Shown one piece after another: positions 57,823 through 64,000 of a stretch of DNA of 64,000 bases. A program made the position numbers and the translations under genes. The stretch spans positions 1,435,176-1,499,175 of the forward strand of contig NC_015727.1 in assembly GCF_000219215.1 (NCBI RefSeq), read 5' to 3'. The notes beneath the pieces were generated by a model, which was not told the origin of the DNA, ran no database searches, and worked only from the letters and a program-made list of their open reading frames with translations. Position 1 is the first letter of the stretch. Each line of letters starts with the position of its first letter. The DNA comes from Cupriavidus necator N-1. Lineage in GTDB: Bacteria > Pseudomonadota > Gammaproteobacteria > Burkholderiales > Burkholderiaceae.

Positions 57823-58775
57823 GCCGCCACCACCCGATTGCGCTGCTCGCCCAGGTCGATGGCGCCGTCGTCGGTGCGGATCGAAGCGGTCATGATGTCG
57901 CCCGGCCGCAGGTAAGCCGGGTTGGACAAGCCCTTCTTGATGAAGAGGCGCCACTTCGCACTCTCGGACAGCAAATGCCGGAACACCCACATCGCCAGCT
58001 TGCCAGGCGCACGGGCGGCACAGCCGGCCGGCGTGCCGGTGGCGATCAGATCGCCGGCTTGCAGGTCGTGCAGCGCGGACATCTCGGTAAGCGTCTGGTG
58101 CGGCTTGAAAATCATGTCGCCGCAATAGGCGTCCTGGCGGGGCTGCCCGTTGACATGCAGCTGCATGCGGAACGCGGGCCAGCGCCGCCATTCCTCCTTG
58201 TCCAACAGCACCAGGAAAGGCCCGACCGGGCCGAAGCTGCGGTAGCTCTTGCCCTTGTAGAACTGGGCCTGCGGCAGCTGGACGTCGCGCGCCGAAATGT
58301 CGTTGACGATGGTCACGCCAGCGAGGTACTCGTGCAGCTGGTCCGGCCCGACCTGGACCGCCTCGCTCAGCGGCTTGCGCACCACGAGACCAAGCTCGAT
58401 TTCGTAGTCGAGCAGATGCACATGCGCCGGCCGCACCACGTCGGCGTCGGCGGGCGCAAGGCAGGACGGGGCCTTGGTGAACAGGGTGTTGAAGCCGATC
58501 TTGTCAGGGTCCATGCCGGACTCACGCACATGGCTGGCGTAGTTGATGCCCTGGCACAGGAACTGGCGGTCAGACGTGACCGGCGGCAGCAGCGTGACGG
58601 CGTCGAGCGGCAGCGTGGCCTGGCCGGGGGTGCTGCGCCACGCGGCTTCGAGGCCGTTCGTGACGAAGTCGGCGGTGCTGGCAGAGCCGCAAGACAGGGG
58701 CGCGATGCGGCGGTCGTGGACCACACCCCAGCAGGGTTCGCCGCCGTGGAGATATCGGACGACTTTGACGGACAT
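57819..58775 (-). CDS. Fumarylacetoacetate hydrolase-family protein
   Basis: A 318-residue FAH-fold enzyme: RQFLCQGINYASHVRESGMD opens the catalytic domain; the metal-binding acidic residues are in VHLLDYEIELGLVVRKPLSE (DYEIELG) and IVNDISARDVQLPQAQFYKG KSYRSFGPVGPFLV; LQAGDLIATGTPAGCAA is the conserved end loop. Such proteins hydrolyse or hydrate dioxo acids made by ring cleavage, or decarboxylate them. In this operon it probably processes the product of the VOC dioxygenase. It lies 48 bases after the dioxygenase gene. Confidence 0.92.
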   Translation of the reverse strand: MSVKVVRYLHGGEPCWGVVHDRRIAPLSCGSASTADFVTNGLEAAWRSTPGQATLPLDAVTLLPPVTSDRQFLCQGINYASHVRESGMDPDKIGFNTLFTKAPSCLAPADADVVRPAHVHLLDYEIELGLVVRKPLSEAVQVGPDQLHEYLAGVTIVNDISARDVQLPQAQFYKGKSYRSFGPVGPFLVLLDKEEWRRWPAFRMQLHVNGQPRQDAYCGDMIFKPHQTLTEMSALHDLQAGDLIATGTPAGCAARAPGKLAMWVFRHLLSESAKWRLFIKKGLSNPAYLRPGDIMTASIRTDDGAIDLGEQRNRVVAA

Positions 58776-58823
58776 TTGCTTTCCTTGACGTGAGGGGGTT
58801 CGTAGAGGGGCGGATGCGCAGGC

Positions 58824-59966
58824 TCAGAGCCAGGGCCGCGCCTGGGTCATCACGCGGCCAAGCAGCTTCAGCCGCGCGGCCGAGAGCCGGCCGGCGCGCA
58901 GCAGCCGCGCAACCCGGAACACCGTGGCGAGATTGCGCTTGACACCCATGCCGGCGGGGACGTCGTCGCCCCATGCCCAGATGCCGGACATTTCCAGCGG
59001 CACGTAGTGGGTTTCCCGGTCGGCGGTGAAGACATCACCGTCGGCGTAGTGCTCGAATTCCATGCCGTCCGGATCGAACCAGTAATCGAACAGCTGACTG
59101 CCGAGCACATGGCGCCCGATACCCCACATATGGCGGTGGCCATTCGCGCGCAGCACGTTGTTGCCCTGGCCGAGCGCGTCGAGGTCGAGCACTTCGTATG
59201 CGCTGTGCTCGTATTTCTCCTCGATGCCGCCGGCGAGCACGAAGGCGTGATGGTCCGCGGGCGTGCTGCCGAGGTCCAGGCGGAAGAAGCAGAGATTGGG
59301 AGACCCGTCCTCCAGATACTGGACATCGGTCGGGATCAGGCCGAGATGACGCATATACCAGCGCGCCATGCCGGGAAAGTCGACGGTCTGGAGCACGACG
59401 TGGCCGAGCTTGACCACGGCCGCGGGCTCCAGCGGCGGCCGGACCGTAGCATTCACCCGCCGAAGCTGTCCCGGGTCGTTGGTGAGCGAATGCAGCGGGT
59501 CCCGCAATGGCAGCGGGTCGACCGGCTGCTGGCCGGTCACCAGCCACAGCAAGTTCCCGGCGGGGTCGGTCAGTTCGACGCCGGCGCCGCCGCCCGGAAT
59601 CTCGTCTGCCTGGAGGCGGCGCGCATTCGCGTTGGCCTCGAGGTAGTCCAGGTCTGCCTCGCTGCGCACCGAAAAGGCCGCGCCGACATAACGCGAGCGC
59701 TGCCCTGGCGTCGCGAGCATCAGGCACGGCTGGGGGCCGGCGCCGCGCATCAACAGCCGGCTGCCGGTGCGCGACACGCAATGCATGCCGAAATCCGTCA
59801 GGAAGGTCTGCGTCGCGCGCAGGTCGCGCTTCTCGAACATCAGGAAGGCAAGCGCCTGGGCCTTGACCAGGGCTTCGGGCCGGTCGAGCTTCTGGACGAA
59901 GGCAGGCAGCGCACTTTCGGGGAAAGCCGGCGGCGTGCGCAGCACGCTGCGGGGCGGACGGGTCAT
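58824..59966 (-). CDS. Extradiol dioxygenase-like VOC protein
   Basis: A 380-residue protein with two VOC modules. The N-terminal one (LVKAQALAFLMFEKRDLRAT... ELTDPAGNLLWLVTG) seems catalytically silent. The C-terminal one has the ligands expected for a type I extradiol dioxygenase: His in VVKLGHVVLQTVDFPGMARW, His in STPADHHAFVLAGG and Glu in DPDGMEFEHYADG. It would open a catechol-type ring next to the hydroxyls using Fe(II). It is longer than ordinary catechol 2,3-dioxygenases (about 300 residues), with a 40-residue N-terminal extension and a C-terminal tail, so it may belong to an uncharacterised branch. First gene of the operon. Confidence 0.82.
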   Translation of the reverse strand: MTRPPRSVLRTPPAFPESALPAFVQKLDRPEALVKAQALAFLMFEKRDLRATQTFLTDFGMHCVSRTGSRLLMRGAGPQPCLMLATPGQRSRYVGAAFSVRSEADLDYLEANANARRLQADEIPGGGAGVELTDPAGNLLWLVTGQQPVDPLPLRDPLHSLTNDPGQLRRVNATVRPPLEPAAVVKLGHVVLQTVDFPGMARWYMRHLGLIPTDVQYLEDGSPNLCFFRLDLGSTPADHHAFVLAGGIEEKYEHSAYEVLDLDALGQGNNVLRANGHRHMWGIGRHVLGSQLFDYWFDPDGMEFEHYADGDVFTADRETHYVPLEMSGIWAWGDDVPAGMGVKRNLATVFRVARLLRAGRLSAARLKLLGRVMTQARPWL

Positions 59967-60012
59967 GGCGTCTCCAATGGCCGGGCGCCGCCATAGGTGG
60001 CACCCGATGTTT

Positions 60013-60047
60013 TGACGACATTATCGTCATCCTGACGTTTTAGTCAA
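60013..60047 (-). promoter_or_regulatory. Promoter with overlapping palindrome for the minus-strand catabolic operon
   Basis: On the minus strand TTGACT (60047-60042), a 16-base spacer, and GATAAT (60025-60020) form a strong sigma-70-type promoter about 55 bases before the dioxygenase ATG. The palindrome TGACGACATTATCGTCA (60013-60029) covers the -10 box, and a second TGAC...GTCA pair overlaps the spacer, so a repressor would block RNA polymerase. No regulator gene adjoins on this side. Confidence 0.6.
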
Positions 60048-60297
60048 TATCAAAGAGACGAGCAGACCTTTGTCCGCAGCCGCTTGCGACGTGTGCTTCA
60101 TTCGGCGTGATTCGTGGGCGGCCCGCGTTATTGTGATGCTGTTTCGTCAAGCTTTTTCTCTCACAACACCAAGGCAAAAGGCCAATTGCGGCAACGGTTT
60201 GCGAGCAGCCACGCAGTGGCTTCATGGCTTGACCAGCGGTCAGGAGCCAACTAGGCGCCGGTAGACGGAAATCGTAAGGTCCAGCGCTTGGCGCTAG

Positions 60298-60332
60298 GCC
60301 TGAGTGGTGAAATCGATAGACACAAGGGACTT
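60298..60332 (+). tRNA. 5' half of a tRNA-Leu gene (partial)
   Basis: GCCTGAG-TG-GTG...CAC-A-AGGGA-CTT follows the tRNA-Leu plan: acceptor strand 60298-60304, T8-G9, a 3-base-pair D stem (GTG 60307-60309 with CAC 60321-60323) enclosing the Leu-like D loop GTGAAATCGATAGA, A26, the anticodon-stem strand AGGGA (60325-60329), then CTT. The text breaks after U34, where cyanobacterial tRNA-Leu(UAA) genes carry a group I intron. The 3' half (AAAATCCCT..., a T arm with TTCGA, CTCAGGC acceptor strand) was not found downstream. Confidence 0.7.
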
Positions 60333-60574
60333 GAACAATTTGAGCCTTCGGGGGGGAAACGCCCGAAGTGAGGCCCGTCAAAGTCGGCGAGAGCCCTGGA
60401 TGCTGCAGCATCCGAGCCAACGCCGAGCCAAGCTGCGGATTTCGGTGAAGGTGTAGAGAGCAGACAGCGGGCACCGTTCGCAGCCATCGCGGAGAATAGT
60501 GCCGAGCACTACGGCCAGCTGCCGAGGGCCCCAAGCTCATCGATCGCCGGCCTCGCTGGCGAACTGCGCATTAG
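60333..60574 (+). ncRNA. Group I intron-like catalytic RNA, similar to Azoarcus and cyanobacterial tRNA introns
   Basis: The core of a small (IC3-type) group I intron can be read off. P1: exon CTT with GAG at 60342-60344 (terminal U-G pair). P2: CTTCGGG (60346-60352) with CCCGAAG (60362-60368). P3: GCCCG (60373-60377) with CGGGC (60468-60472). P4: TCGGCG (60384-60389) with CGCCGA (60421-60426), followed by GCCAAGC as in the Azoarcus intron. P5: GGATGC-TGCA-GCATCC (60398-60413). The conserved GAAGGTGTAGAGA (from 60447) leads into P7: GAGC (60458-60461) with GCTC (60535-60538). A P8-region hairpin is at 60497-60511 and a P9 candidate is TCGCC (60544-60548)/GGCGA (60558-60562). The 3' end is a guess (a terminal G at 60574). 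Pairings were found by eye, and P6 is weak. Confidence 0.72.
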
Positions 60575-60586
60575 ACCTTGCGTAGC

Positions 60587-60607
60587 AAAAAGGGGGCCGA
60601 AGCCCCC
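60587..60607 (-). terminator. Rho-independent terminator, minus strand
   Basis: On the minus strand GGGGGC-TTCG-GCCCCC followed by TTTTT: a 6-base-pair GC stem with a UUCG tetraloop and a T-run. It would end transcription coming from the right. The only ORF just upstream on that strand is a 14-codon frame (60612-60656, MSQQSHYFAERGLL), so the transcript may be a small RNA or the tail of a lost gene. Confidence 0.75.
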
Positions 60608-61296
60608 GAGATCAGAGCAGGCCTCGCTCGGCGAAGTAATGGGACTGTTGCGACATGATCGTGTTCCGGTTGCTCGGGCGGAATTGCCCGGAACCGGCGC
60701 CAGCACGGCGCAGCGCCAGCCGTCAGAGGGTCGAGGACGGCCACGGCCGCAAGCGCCTAAGGCACGCAGCCCTTGACGGCGAGAACGTCGTGATACGGTG
60801 AAGGAAACAGCAAGACCGCTCTCCCCCCTTCGGCAGAAACCGCGGACTGGCAAGCGCAGCGCGCAGGGCCGAAGGCGTCAGCCCTCAATGGGGACCTCGC
60901 TTCGACCTCGATATCTCCCTAGGCGGCATCGGCCAAGGCTGCGCAAAGTGCGTCTGCCATGTCGCGAATCCTTACCCCTAATCCACAAATTAGCTATGCT
61001 GCTACGCCCACACCAATCATCCGCCGGCGGCGATGGCCTGAGGGAAAGTCTATGGCAAGCTTTGGGCCCGCCGCCTCGACGGCGCATGAGCGTGGCGAGC
61101 CAGTCCAAGCTCGGAGAGATCTGGCCCAGGACGACAAGCCCTCTCCGAAGCCCGCGAATTTACTTCGGATCCACATCCCGCCGGATAGCTGTGCCTCGCC
61201 AGAGGCGAGAGGCGCGGCCCGCATCCCCGACGGCAGCGCGCCGGGATGCACTTGCTAGCGTCGCGGAGATCGAACATCGCGCCGCGCAATAGTTGT
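60608..61296. other. Gap without a recognisable gene
   Basis: About 690 bases of GC-rich DNA between the terminator and the region behind rep. A 14-codon minus-strand frame (60612-60656) precedes the terminator. GGCAAGCGCAGCGCGCAGGG near 60850 and GGCGTCAGCC resemble text at 15670-15740. No protein family is recognised. Confidence 0.5.
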
Positions 61297-61308
61297 TTAG
61301 CGCGCTAA
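61297..61308. promoter_or_regulatory. Perfect 12-base palindrome TTAGCGCGCTAA behind rep
   Basis: TTAGCGCGCTAA lies 32 bases beyond the rep stop codon. It resembles KorB/ParB-type boxes (TTTAGCSGCTAAA), differing by one extra central base. It might be a centromere-like site; only one copy was found. Confidence 0.35.
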
Positions 61309-61339
61309 CACGATCAGCCAGGCAGGAAAGCTGCGGCCT

Positions 61340-62737
61340 TCAGGCGCGCAAGGAGGCCATACGCCCAAACACAAATTGGCCCAGGTACCATGCCAACTCT
61401 GAATTCGCCAGGATGATGTCTTCGGATACGGACGATGCCTCCAGCCTCATCCGCTTCAACACAAGCTTGCCCTCGCGCGAGGCCAACCATGCCCGGACAA
61501 AATCCCCTCGCGCTTTGGTATCCGCTGCCCCGAAGTGTTCGCGCCCTTGCCGCGATTCTTCATTCATGCGAGTGCGGGTCTCGTCTTCACGCGAGGCAAC
61601 ACTGCGCTCCACGCTGGTCTTGACGGCGATCTTCGCGGCGTCCTTCTGTTCTTCCTCGACAAGCAGCTTGGTCTGGACCTGGACCATCGTGCGCTCAGCC
61701 TCTGACATGCGCCAATTGTCACGCAAGGCCTTCATCAAATAGCCTGCGGGACTCTTCTTGACCTGACCGCGATTGAGCTTGAAGCGCGTGTACTCGATCG
61801 CCTGCAGGATGCGATCATCATTCCATGTCTCGCGGTTCTCGGAGAGCTCGCCAAACTGCCGGGTTGAGAGGTTGAACTCTTCCTTAAGAATCTTATAGAT
61901 TTGGCTGGCATCGGACAGGCTTGCCATGACAGCGTCGGCCGTGTCCTTACGCTTGAGGAGAAAGCGAATCCGGTCGACCTTCTTCGAGGAAGTGGACTCG
62001 GTCTTGGTCTCGTAGGACAGCTCGATGTCCGAGATCTCATTGATTTCGCGGACCGCAGGCTCCAGCCAGTCGCGCTTGAAGTATTTGAAGATGTTGGCAT
62101 TCGCGCCCATCTTTCCCGGCCAGGTCCGCATCTCATCAAGTTTGATCCAGTCCGTACGCCCGTTGGGCACACTCGGCAAGACCTTGTCATAGATCGCACG
62201 CGCGAGACTGCGGGTAAATGCCGTTGAGATGCGAAGGCTGAGCCAATGAGACTTGCGGGGATCTCGAATATGCGGGATCAAACTGTGATGCACATCGAAA
62301 CGGACGCGGCCGCGATGCATCGCCACCATGCCGATCAACTGGACCTGGACCCAGATATCGTTCTCATCTGGCTCCCGGTCTGACGGTGTATTGGTCACGC
62401 GAACCTTGGCGTTCTGCGCCTCGTCCGCGATAGTACGCAGGTGCTTCAGATTCCGGCTGTCATAGCGCATCAACCACTTAAAGTAGTTCAGCTCGACATC
62501 GTATTGGTCAGGAACCTCCGGCTCTTGTGCCACGATGAAATACGCGGCATCCAGGAACCGTCGTGCCGCCAATCCCATGTTGACAATTTCCGTGAAGAAA
62601 TTGTTGCGCTGATAGCCGATTTCACGGTTGGCCTCGTTGATGGGCATCCCGAGGTCAAACATGTCCTCAAACAATGCCAGCGCCATTTGGCGAGGCGTCG
62701 TCCTCGCTTTGACCTCCACCGGATTGTCCGTCTCCAT
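61340..62737 (-). CDS. Plasmid replication initiator, Rep_3-like (megaplasmid/chromid type)
   Basis: A 465-residue initiator. N-terminal half: MALALFEDMFDLGMPINEAN REIGYQRNNFFTEIVNMGLA, VELNYFKWLMRYDSRNLKHL and VQVQLIGMVAMHRGRVRFDV, with SLRISTAFTRSLARAIYDKV and WIKLDEMRTWPGKMGANANI FKYFKRDWLEPAVREIN forming the second winged helix of Rep_3-type initiators. The C-terminal 130 residues are charged and helical (RTMVQVQTKLLVEEEQKDAA). Proteins of this type start replication of megaplasmids and second chromosomes in Burkholderiaceae. The gene starts at 62737, and some 18 iterons follow upstream (62810-63892), which it should bind. No parAB is in the window on this side. Confidence 0.82.
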   Translation of the reverse strand: METDNPVEVKARTTPRQMALALFEDMFDLGMPINEANREIGYQRNNFFTEIVNMGLAARRFLDAAYFIVAQEPEVPDQYDVELNYFKWLMRYDSRNLKHLRTIADEAQNAKVRVTNTPSDREPDENDIWVQVQLIGMVAMHRGRVRFDVHHSLIPHIRDPRKSHWLSLRISTAFTRSLARAIYDKVLPSVPNGRTDWIKLDEMRTWPGKMGANANIFKYFKRDWLEPAVREINEISDIELSYETKTESTSSKKVDRIRFLLKRKDTADAVMASLSDASQIYKILKEEFNLSTRQFGELSENRETWNDDRILQAIEYTRFKLNRGQVKKSPAGYLMKALRDNWRMSEAERTMVQVQTKLLVEEEQKDAAKIAVKTSVERSVASREDETRTRMNEESRQGREHFGAADTKARGDFVRAWLASREGKLVLKRMRLEASSVSEDIILANSELAWYLGQFVFGRMASLRA

Positions 62738-62809
62738 ACGCGTCTTCCCGCTCGTTTTATTGCTCGGGCGACTCTAGCATGTGATGGTGAGGTCCTGTCA
62801 ACACAACAA

Positions 62810-63102
62810 ACCTCACCTTCAGGTTGATCCGTCGGGCTGTCGGGTCAGCGTGGGTCAATGCGCACAATGAATCTCACCTGATGCACAACCAACCTCACCG
62901 ATCTCCGTCACGCGAATCGTTCAAGCCTAGGACCAGTCTGGGCAAAGCGGACTTGTCCACAGGTGACGCACAATACATCTCACCTTCGGGGTGTTTGCAC
63001 AATGAGCCTCACCTTGTCGGGGAATAGACCTCACCGTCATCACACAGTAAACCGCACCTTCGCAACACACGGAACCTCACCTTTGACACAGCTAACCTCA
63101 CC
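62810..63102 (-). repeat. Iteron cluster 1 (rep-proximal), all in one orientation
   Basis: Consensus CACAATNAACCTCACC. Full or near-full copies start at 62863 (CACAATGAATCTCACC), 62884, 62969, 62998, 63066 and 63087; shorter ACCTCACC cores are at 62810 and 63028 and a degenerate one near 63051. An inverted core GGTGAGGT is at 62786. Copies 62863/62884 and 63066/63087 are spaced 21 bases, two helical turns. Proximity to the rep start suggests autoregulation as well as origin function. Confidence 0.85.
62953..62961 (+). promoter_or_regulatory. DnaA-box-like TTGTCCACA
   Basis: One mismatch from the DnaA consensus TTATCCACA, lying between iterons 62884 and 62969. A single box, so moderate support. 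Confidence 0.4.
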
Positions 63103-63389
63103 TTTGAGAGGTTAAGTCCTTGATCAACAAGGATTTCGCAATTCTCTGTTTGTAAGTTGGGTGGTTTACTTCAAAAACATCCAACCAACATAACGCCGGC
63201 AGTCACGATGCGAACGGTGCGCGTCGGGACCCTTCGAGTTCTGCACACGTGCGTACCCATTTCTGCGTCCTGATTGATGTGATTTAACCGGGATTGCGCC
63301 GAAGCAATAGGATCGACGGACCTGTCCGACGCTACGAAGCTGGCAAGAGGATCGCTGGAAGTCCTGTAAGGACCCGCGCTCAGCCTCAT

Positions 63390-63892
63390 GGTGAGGTTCT
63401 TTGTGCATGAGATGAAGGTGAGGTTTTTTGTGCTGGCGATTGCCGAGGTTAAACCTTGCACAATGAACCTCACCGTCCGATGAAAGGGTCTGGCCACTCA
63501 AAGGATGGTGAGGTTGATTGTGCATCGGCTGGCGCGTGTACCCCGCTCCCTGACTCCCAGCCCTGAAAAGGGCTGTCATTGCGACGAGATGATGCTCCAG
63601 CACTAGACCATGCTGCAAAGCAGCACAAATAACCTCACCATCACTGTTCTTGCCTGACGGACTTCCTTGTCTGGGCCGTGTAAAGGTGAGGTCAATTGTG
63701 CGGAAACGGCGAGCAGGTGCCCTCCCCCATACCAAGCCCTGGGCAAGACTTTGGCTGGACGGGAACGAAGGTGAGTTTCATTGTGCCGGATTTCGGCGAG
63801 TTCACTTCTCCGGTTTTGCCGAACGGCACAAATGACCTCACCTTGCCGGCGCCCGAAAGGCGATGTAGCCATTGAAGGTGAGGTCATTTGTG
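63390..63892. repeat. Iteron cluster 2 (distal), both orientations
   Basis: The same 16-base unit as GGTGAGGTTNATTGTG on the plus strand at 63390, 63417, 63507, 63685, 63770 and 63877, and as CACAATGAACCTCACC on the minus strand at 63459, 63624 and 63827. Unlike cluster 1 the copies alternate in orientation and are spaced 27-117 bases apart, so they form inverted pairs (for example 63827 with 63877). Such inverted sets are often used for handcuffing/copy control or repressor binding, while direct sets drive opening. Confidence 0.85.
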
Positions 63893-63974
63893 TCACGCTT
63901 TGGGTCCGCCAATAAGTCGAGGGATCTCCCAGCGCTTATCGGGTACCTCATGTGAACCCCAAGACGTCCAAAAC

Positions 63975-63991
63975 TGCCTAAAGCTTAGGCA
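63975..63991. other. Palindrome TGCCTAA-AGC-TTAGGCA at the window end
   Basis: A 7-base-pair inverted repeat with 3-base centre, 83 bases past the last iteron. Could be an operator or hairpin for a gene beyond the window; nothing more can be said. Confidence 0.35.
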
Positions 63992-64000
63992 AAATCGTTG

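Follow-up and report, generated by a model that had tools for sequence, protein, structure and literature searches.

The window analysed here is a 64 kb stretch that forms the end of contig C4 (1,499,175 bases) in an 8.48 Mb genome of four contigs, and among the plasmids of the collection searched, p1 of Cupriavidus sp. KK10 resembles it most. Toward its far end, on the plus strand, lies a tRNA-Leu 5' exon (60298-60332) comprising the acceptor 5' strand, the D arm and the anticodon 5' strand up to U34, and directly behind it begins a group I intron, of which the initial 143 nt are present (60333-60475). Within this intron part, also on the plus strand, are P2 (60347-60368), both strands of P3 (60373-60379 and 60466-60472), P4 (60384-60389 with 60421-60426) and the 5' strand only of P7 (60458-60462); P1, P5, part of P6 and the first 3 nt of P8 are retained as well. 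A preliminary description of this DNA had recognized the tRNA half ending at U34, P1 with its U.G pair, P2, P3, P4, P5 and the GGTGTAGAGA element, and all of these are present as described. A profile built from 28 complete tRNA-Leu intron genes matches 60298-60483, which includes the exon, at E = 4.3e-44 over profile positions 1-188 of 312. The exon is matched by that of complete copies, with an A at position 19 where all 28 complete relatives have G, and identity to the complete genes of same-genus genomes is 88%, as far as 60475.

Beyond 60475 the gene is cut. Both sides are present for 36 of the 57 base pairs of the family structure, and 33 of these form while 3 fail; the remaining 21 are without one or both sides. 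The catalytic core is incomplete, being without the P7 3' strand, the P8 3' strand, P9 and the terminal G, and the tRNA 3' half is missing too. The sequence that follows (60476-60579, listed without strand) has no alignment to the intron family and no match among the ICE loci compared. It was here that the preliminary description had placed the second half of P7, P8 and P9. Its P7 3' strand, GCTC (60535-60538), is a chance match that occurs in 70% of dinucleotide shuffles of 60479-60580, an interval from which the family's TGCTC is absent, and the supposed co-variation with the Azoarcus pairing is likewise due to chance, the family P7 being GAGCA/UGCUC. The P8 and P9 hairpins of that description fall in 60476-60580, a stretch that as a whole does not align with the family. 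The absence of a tRNA 3' half near the feature was correctly noted: with introns allowed, ARAGORN calls no tRNA in 59801-61500 and none in KK10, and an intronless run on the window calls none either. A suggested search for the intron or tRNA 3' half elsewhere in the same genome returned only an intronless tRNA-Leu(CAA) 3' part and short matches. Rfam gives only chance matches in 58000-64000, and phage records searched with the window piece gave no match.

The KK10 copy is damaged in a similar way. Its fragment is identical to that of the window at 170 of 182 positions, the enclosing 6.5 kb being 99% identical, and 31 of its pairs form, 5 fail, including one in P4, and 21 are without one or both sides. 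It departs from the family within a few bases of the break in the window and then continues into different, unrelated sequence. The fragment covers 87 columns that are invariant in the 28 genes, of which 4 are changed in the window and 7 in KK10; the D-loop G19 is changed in both, and two of the changes in the window and three of those in KK10 are located at the break. Judged from these losses, the window copy is a pseudogene that should neither splice nor yield a tRNA; it should not splice because the family P7 3' strand, P8 and P9 are absent. The relative of tRNA group I introns that had been proposed to reside on this plasmid does exist, in truncated form.

Two stretches of a radC-type region follow (60580-60635 and 60641-60881, listed without strand), and similar stretches occur inside the ICEs of two other genomes, G346 and G115, described below. 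We considered radC as proof of ICE origin and rejected it, since a radC-type stretch also adjoins rep in another Cupriavidus contig (L005), and the stretch in the window need not derive from a Tn4371-type ICE. Pieces of the rep 3' region (61244-61519 and 61935-61980) have inverted duplicates at C4:6801-7122 that are 97.8-99.6% identical. Upstream of rep, a near-perfect inverted repeat, GGCACAAATGACCTCACCT...GGTGAGGTCATTTGTGTC (63825-63894), is perhaps an origin structure.

Complete relatives of the truncated gene are scattered across Burkholderiales, with introns of 213-268 nt whose helices covary. The family alignment comprises 28 complete genes (L065, L072 and L073 were excluded), and the group I structure was drawn by hand on one of them, L054, as 57 pairs. 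In this alignment 94.8% of the cells (57 pairs, 28 genes) are paired, two-sided changes occur in 25 of the 57 pairs against 15.5 in shuffles, and the covariation score is 0.252 against 0.116, with none of 500 shuffles as high; on four of the five measures no shuffle reached the observed value, and on the fifth 2 of 500 did. When the 3' partners are slid, pairing falls to 31-42%, a control that favours the structure since it was drawn on one aligned sequence. P7 is GAGCA/UGCUC in 25 of the 28 genes and GACUA/UAGUC, changed on both sides, in the other 3. By P3, P4-P6, P7 and P8, with their covariation in complete relatives, comparative analysis places the family among the group I introns. In the introns of tRNA-Leu(CAA) (L069, L070, L075, L223 and others) the last exon base is C, and a C-G pair replaces U.G at the 5' splice site (10 of 28 aligned). 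The Rfam model RF00028, proposed as a check on the window, proved uninformative: it gave no match in the window, and at E <= 0.5 none in the complete Cupriavidus copy L054. It scored 45.2 bits on L003 and 34.5 on L004, both Mycetohabitans copies, and 38.8 on L143, with a gathering cut-off of 50 bits. ARAGORN with introns called tRNA-Leu in 28 of 29 loci (L053-L081, the exception being L065), and in intronless mode in 0 of 29. The practical lesson is that ARAGORN without its intron option overlooked all 28 tRNA genes, and that Rfam overlooked the single Cupriavidus copy tried.

The setting of an intact gene is clearest in genomes G346 and G115. In G346, the native tRNA-Leu(UAA) gene is split into a 5' half (positions 1-43; C33:18612-18654) and a 3' half (33-87; C33:80440-80494) that lie ~62 kb apart, and in G115 the same two ends are found on two contigs. 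In both, the element sits within the anticodon loop of the native gene, with the 5' half at one junction and the 3' half at the other, and the junctions carry a 9-bp direct repeat, CTTAAAATC, which is the anticodon loop plus two bases. The genes outside the G346 halves are those that surround the whole gene in the chromosome of the window's own genome: a LysR-like gene, tRNA-Cys and two tRNA-Gly genes on the right and, on the left, an ORF that we take to be TonB-like. Read inward, one end comprises the first 41-43 nt of the native gene, ~160 nt of flank, a complete tRNA-Leu(UAA) gene with a group I intron directly after U34, then trbI and more trb genes; between the intron tRNA and trbI, G346 has Gabija genes and a transposase gene of IS481 type. 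At the other end, the start of a tyrosine recombinase gene lies 177 bp inward of the 3' half in G346, and a recombinase 90% identical to it occupies the same place in G115. The G346 interior holds trb genes, a TraG-type protein, a replication initiator (RPA), a ParA-type ATPase and a DUF3363 protein with a Relaxase match of 20.8 bits (Pfam cut-off 24.6). Its cargo includes a BphC-type dioxygenase and a ring-hydroxylating dioxygenase, and its defence-type genes are Gabija (GajA, GajB) and ThsB-type (L165:12324-16534, L205:5294-6436, L205:9996-10463). Based upon the tyrosine recombinase, trb/TraG genes, replication initiator, ParA and att repeats, the G346 element can be assigned by gene content to the Tn4371 family of ICEs. 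The integrase had 10 matches, in 7 of 60 same-genus genomes, and within the fetched flank a tRNA-Leu half lay near the integrase only at G346:C33 and G115:C39; the other eight loci had none and were counted against the association.

Upstream of the tRNA exon, the window carries what we read as the end region of a Tn4371-type ICE (60130-60297, plus strand). It starts with CTGTTTCGTCAAG, the counterpart of the ATCTGTTTTGTCAAG that sits just inside the att core of G346, and the core CTTAAAATC is absent at this region. Aligned with G346, G115, G740, G738, KK10 and G261, the flank is 82% identical to that of G261 (128 nt) and 73% to that of G346 (123 nt); the values for G336 and G115 are 74% (77 nt) and 70% (97 nt). 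Six of the 60 same-genus genomes, the window's own included, match 60100-60300; the matches in G346 and G115 lie directly upstream of the complete intron tRNA-Leu, and that in G375 is on the catabolic-gene side only. The flank also contains a 20-bp motif, AGGAGCCAACTAGGCGCCGG (60242-60261, plus strand), which is found near both ends of the G346 ICE. The corresponding pattern, AGGRGCCRRCTAGGNGCCRG, drawn by eye from these same ICE ends, occurs once in the window and in none of 100 shuffles, a count to be read with its derivation from the same sequences in mind. It is exact in 13 of 266 loci, several of which are one place. G346 has one copy at its tRNA end and another at its integrase end, G115 has it at both ends with 1-2 mismatches, and in relaxed form it occurs at both ends of G261 and in three CAA loci. 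It is absent from the G346 ICE interior loci L203 and L204, and KK10 (where one base is inserted), G336 and G587 yielded no match. The motif is probably an integrase-binding site.

A wider survey showed how often such ends recur. A search of 399 Burkholderiales genomes with the G115 gene gave matches in 49 at E <= 1e-12; in 25 of these, query positions 8-317 are covered by one match, and most of the others match in the 3' exon only. The core CTTAAAATC lies 168-203 nt upstream in 5 of 51 loci checked, namely in G346, G115, G740 (family f4), G738 (f49) and G587 (f30), with trbI on the other side in four and farther on in G346. Each core locus adjoins a tRNA-Leu(UAA) 5' half, with four different half sequences in these five genomes of four families; 3' halves were examined in G346 and G115 alone. 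The genes of G115 and G740 are 96% identical in different families, which speaks for horizontal movement. The preliminary description had offered a stranded or mobile intron, or a truncated att-site tRNA, as explanations of the window feature. The link to an attachment site holds up, but the 5' half is not the att site itself, because in the five relatives the core lies upstream, in another tRNA-Leu 5' half. For the same reason, and since KK10 breaks nearby but continues with unrelated sequence, we rejected the break at 60475 as an attachment site. A CAA version of the arrangement occurs in 3 of 22 loci examined (G165, G195, G100), where a tRNA-Leu(CAA) 5' half ending in GACTCAAAA is followed by an intron tRNA-Leu(CAA); G165 has trbI at 90%, and G195 and G100 have no trbI in the fetched flank. 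In G307, a tRNA-Leu 5' part of another kind lies at the corresponding place.

Related genes also occur on other replicons. A Klebsiella plasmid (NZ_KT818627.1) carries a complete, unannotated intron tRNA-Leu(UAA) near aac(3)-IId (L143:2990-3287); this gene matches 635 of 5426 E. coli genomes, of which 624 hold at least 80% of it, and 589 of 670 places are on plasmids. Complete intron tRNA-Leu(UAA) genes lie on Mycetohabitans megaplasmids (L003:2995-3342, L004:2995-3342) and on a Candidatus Vallotia plasmid (L144:3004-3356); for these two groups three genes were checked and further records were found by similarity. The intron tRNA-Leu of V. cooleyia lies ~1.8 kb from a tyrosine recombinase gene. 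The intron gene has matches in a 595-kb uncultured phage (LR756511.1:409169-409953, 74.7% over 79% of the query) and in Gordonia phage Daredevil (NC_048021.1:41853-41970, 77.5% over 38%).

How the carried gene relates to the native one can be seen in the 60 same-genus genomes. Taking matches that span positions 1-87 as a full native gene, full-length native tRNA-Leu(UAA) is present in 45 genomes, full-length intron tRNA-Leu(UAA) in 12, and both in none; thus the intron gene occurs in 0 of the 45 genomes with an unsplit native gene and in 12 of the 15 without one, counts that are not independent events, the 12 genes being probably related. The other three genomes without a full native gene are G326, G370 and G398, the last only 54% complete. 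The G326 gene is cut by a ~18 kb insert with a phage-type integrase gene at its left end, both halves being seen; the G370 gene is cut as well, with the 3' half alone seen. Each of these two has an intronless tRNA-Leu(UAA) ~156 bp from the 3' half, in which CTTAAAATT replaces CTTAAAATC (last base changed). We dropped the label of prophage for these elements, its basis being the one phage-type integrase in G326.

Only G346 and G115 among the 12 have ICE ends. In the other ten, the core is absent from the 420 nt upstream of the intron gene and trbI from the 1.5 kb downstream of it; nine of them have no integrase at E <= 1e-60, and G255 has a 66% match elsewhere. All ten genes are preceded by a promoter-like sequence, CCACAATA(C/T)CGGGCTTGCC; the same sequence stands before the native gene in the chromosome of the window's genome and before the native halves of G346, G115 and G326. 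In G214 a decayed native 5' half still lies between this sequence and the intron gene, and in G026 the genes flanking the intron gene are those of the window's genome. We read these ten genomes as hosts that retained the carried tRNA and lost the ICE. In addition to a full native gene, G220 has what is left of a 3' half and a piece of an integrase gene that contains an internal stop.

A second comparison used 28 genomes picked from earlier matches, which were searched for intronless full tRNA-Leu genes with a strict pattern, so that absence weighs less than presence. Intronless tRNA-Leu(UAA) was found in seven: the window's genome (G000, twice), G261, G316, G165, G100, G307 and G600; by this pattern it was found in none of 18 genomes with intron tRNA-Leu(UAA). 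Intronless tRNA-Leu(CAA) was found in 19 of the 28. Intron tRNA-Leu(CAA) is carried by G165, G195, G100, G307, G600, G099 and G346, and the intronless CAA form as well only by G600, which was counted against the exclusion. By the same pattern G195 is without both forms, and G738, G587 and G692 are without the CAA form.

The window's genome has an intact native tRNA-Leu(UAA) gene (C3:2508799), and the plasmid copy could therefore decay. The window's megaplasmid also has a complete intronless tRNA-Leu(UAA) of its own (C4:56997-57081; L124:6998-7082), which shares 94% identity with the chromosomal gene. G261 presents a similar case: an integrase 85% identical is found at C2:971741 and the flank at C2:1116892, on the opposite strand and 144 kb away, and the native gene is intact on C1. 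No tRNA half was seen beside the integrase or the flank, and the carried tRNA is a stump undetected by the profile, more decayed than that of the window. We infer that integrase and flank belong to one element. Another decayed intron tRNA-Leu lies in G180 (L168:9393-9686) where a Met-Arg-Ser-Gly tRNA array ends; remains of an integrase are found ~5 kb away.

Taken together, these comparisons make it highly probable that the window feature is the decayed end of a Tn4371-family ICE with a cut replacement copy of tRNA-Leu(UAA). Among the results counted against this, the att core is missing from the window at this place, the window's genome has no integrase relative at E <= 1e-60, TrbI and integrase queries against the 64 kb window gave nothing beyond chance (best E 0.10), and the 20-bp motif is interrupted by one base in KK10 and lacking in G587. 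A chromosomal intron tRNA-Leu piece could instead have been copied to the plasmid by illegitimate recombination, with no mobile element involved, and the abrupt end of the fragment, its 88% identity to chromosomal copies and a plasmid region arranged differently from that of KK10 are all in keeping with such an event. However, the ~165 nt upstream match ICE ends and none of the ten ICE-free intron-gene genomes, the 20-bp motif of ICE ends is present, and G261 shares the flank, with its integrase on the same replicon and a more decayed tRNA; we regard simple copying as improbable. That the fragment works as a split, trans-splicing intron, or has taken on a new regulatory role, would fit the retention of 33 of 36 testable pairs. 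With no 3' half elsewhere in the genome, the P7 3' strand missing, further pairs lost in KK10 (31 of 36 kept) and a divergence between the two plasmids greater in the fragment than in the surrounding 6.5 kb, this seems extremely unlikely.

Reading the window as a decayed ICE end leaves the purpose of the carried gene to be explained. Integration of the ICE splits the native tRNA-Leu(UAA) gene within its anticodon loop and would thereby destroy it; the intron-bearing tRNA, which we read as the element's own replacement copy, would make good this loss, presumably transcribed from the retained host promoter or from its own. In the DNA, the intron would split the anticodon loop and leave the carried gene without an att core; in the RNA, self-splicing would rejoin the loop. 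Hosts that later lose the ICE would retain only the intron-bearing tRNA, and with it would have lost the att site. In the window's genome, where the native gene is intact, the plasmid copy would be unneeded and could be cut in the middle. The intron may thus act as a shield, keeping the att core out of the carried tRNA's DNA, so that hosts without the ICE then lack the att site; we hold this tentatively, at slightly less than an even chance. We graded it no higher since the intron gene was the query in every search that led to an ICE end, and ends with an intronless tRNA would escape such a search.

The shield was examined in 56 genes, excluding L065, L256 and L260 (decayed, partial or oddly called), the window and KK10. 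The DNA of all 56 contains neither CTTAAAATC nor CTCAAAATC. When the exons called by ARAGORN are joined, CTTAAAATC is restored in 39 and CTCAAAATC in 15; in the remaining two, L143 and L242, ARAGORN places the boundary elsewhere, and ...GACTT and ...AAAATC stand at the homologous places. This restoration is largely forced, as the anticodon loop accounts for seven of the nine bases, and an intronless carried copy could by its sequence hardly avoid the att core. Over a stretch of 35 nt, the 5' exon carried in G740 has the same sequence as the cut half there. Alternatively, the carried tRNA may truly be a replacement and its intron an inherited passenger of Burkholderiales tRNA-Leu with no part in att shielding, a view that we find credible but rate a little short of evenly balanced. 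Intron tRNA-Leu genes occur also where no ICE end is seen, the elements of G326 and G370 carry intronless replacement tRNAs, and the search through the intron gene bears on this view as well, in its favour. Against it, joining the exons recreates the core in 54 of 56 genes and the other two have homologous boundaries, although the string is mostly dictated by the anticodon loop, and the G326 and G370 replacements have CTTAAAATT instead of the core. On the first of these two readings, the intron would have been retained for att shielding. To our knowledge, there is no agreement on what group I introns contribute to bacterial tRNAs by way of benefit. If the shield is real, the intron would have a plain use, the removal of an integration site for its own carrier element. 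It would also explain how an ICE can have as its target the anticodon loop of a tRNA for which no other gene stands in, by what route these introns pass between bacterial families, and why some hosts have no visible intronless tRNA-Leu(UAA).

The cyanobacterial tRNA-Leu(UAA) intron occupies the same position as the family described here, after U34. In the open-access PMC literature that our search covered, we found no description of an intron-bearing tRNA-Leu on an ICE or of Burkholderiales tRNA-Leu group I introns. The closest known elements are the Tn4371-family ICEKKS102Tn4677 and ICEbphKF708. The att repeat of ICEKKS102Tn4677, as given in the parts of the papers seen, is GATTTTAAG, and tRNA-Leu is named as the main target (PMC11448139, PMC6563109, PMC9960961); GATTTTAAG is the reverse complement of CTTAAAATC. 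According to the same parts, these elements also resemble that of G346 in their trb genes, partition genes, aromatic-degradation cargo and size of 61.8 kb, and they have a relaxase, for which the DUF3363 protein is a candidate counterpart in G346 (PMC11448139, PMC6563109, PMC9960961). They differ in that the target is named as the tRNA-Leu 3' end or a site upstream of tRNA-Gly, the word "intron" occurs 0 times in the texts available, and no carried tRNA is described there. ICEMh1-like elements of Pasteurellaceae likewise enter the anticodon loop of a leucine tRNA (UUG) and leave a partial gene copy, but one end of the element completes a full tRNA across the junction, and the accessible part of the paper describes no separate intron-split tRNA gene (PMC6861422). 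Further literature consulted in part was PMC11476347 and PMC2789088. Small group I introns in the anticodon loop are shared with cyanobacterial tRNA-Leu(UAA) and proteobacterial tRNAs (PMC4033280, seen in part), and the tRNA-Ile2 of Acidovorax and Burkholderia has a group I intron (PMC8450103, also in part). The present family differs from these tRNA introns in its P7, GAGCA/UGCUC in most of the aligned members (25/28), and in residing on a conjugative element, to whose integration site it is linked.
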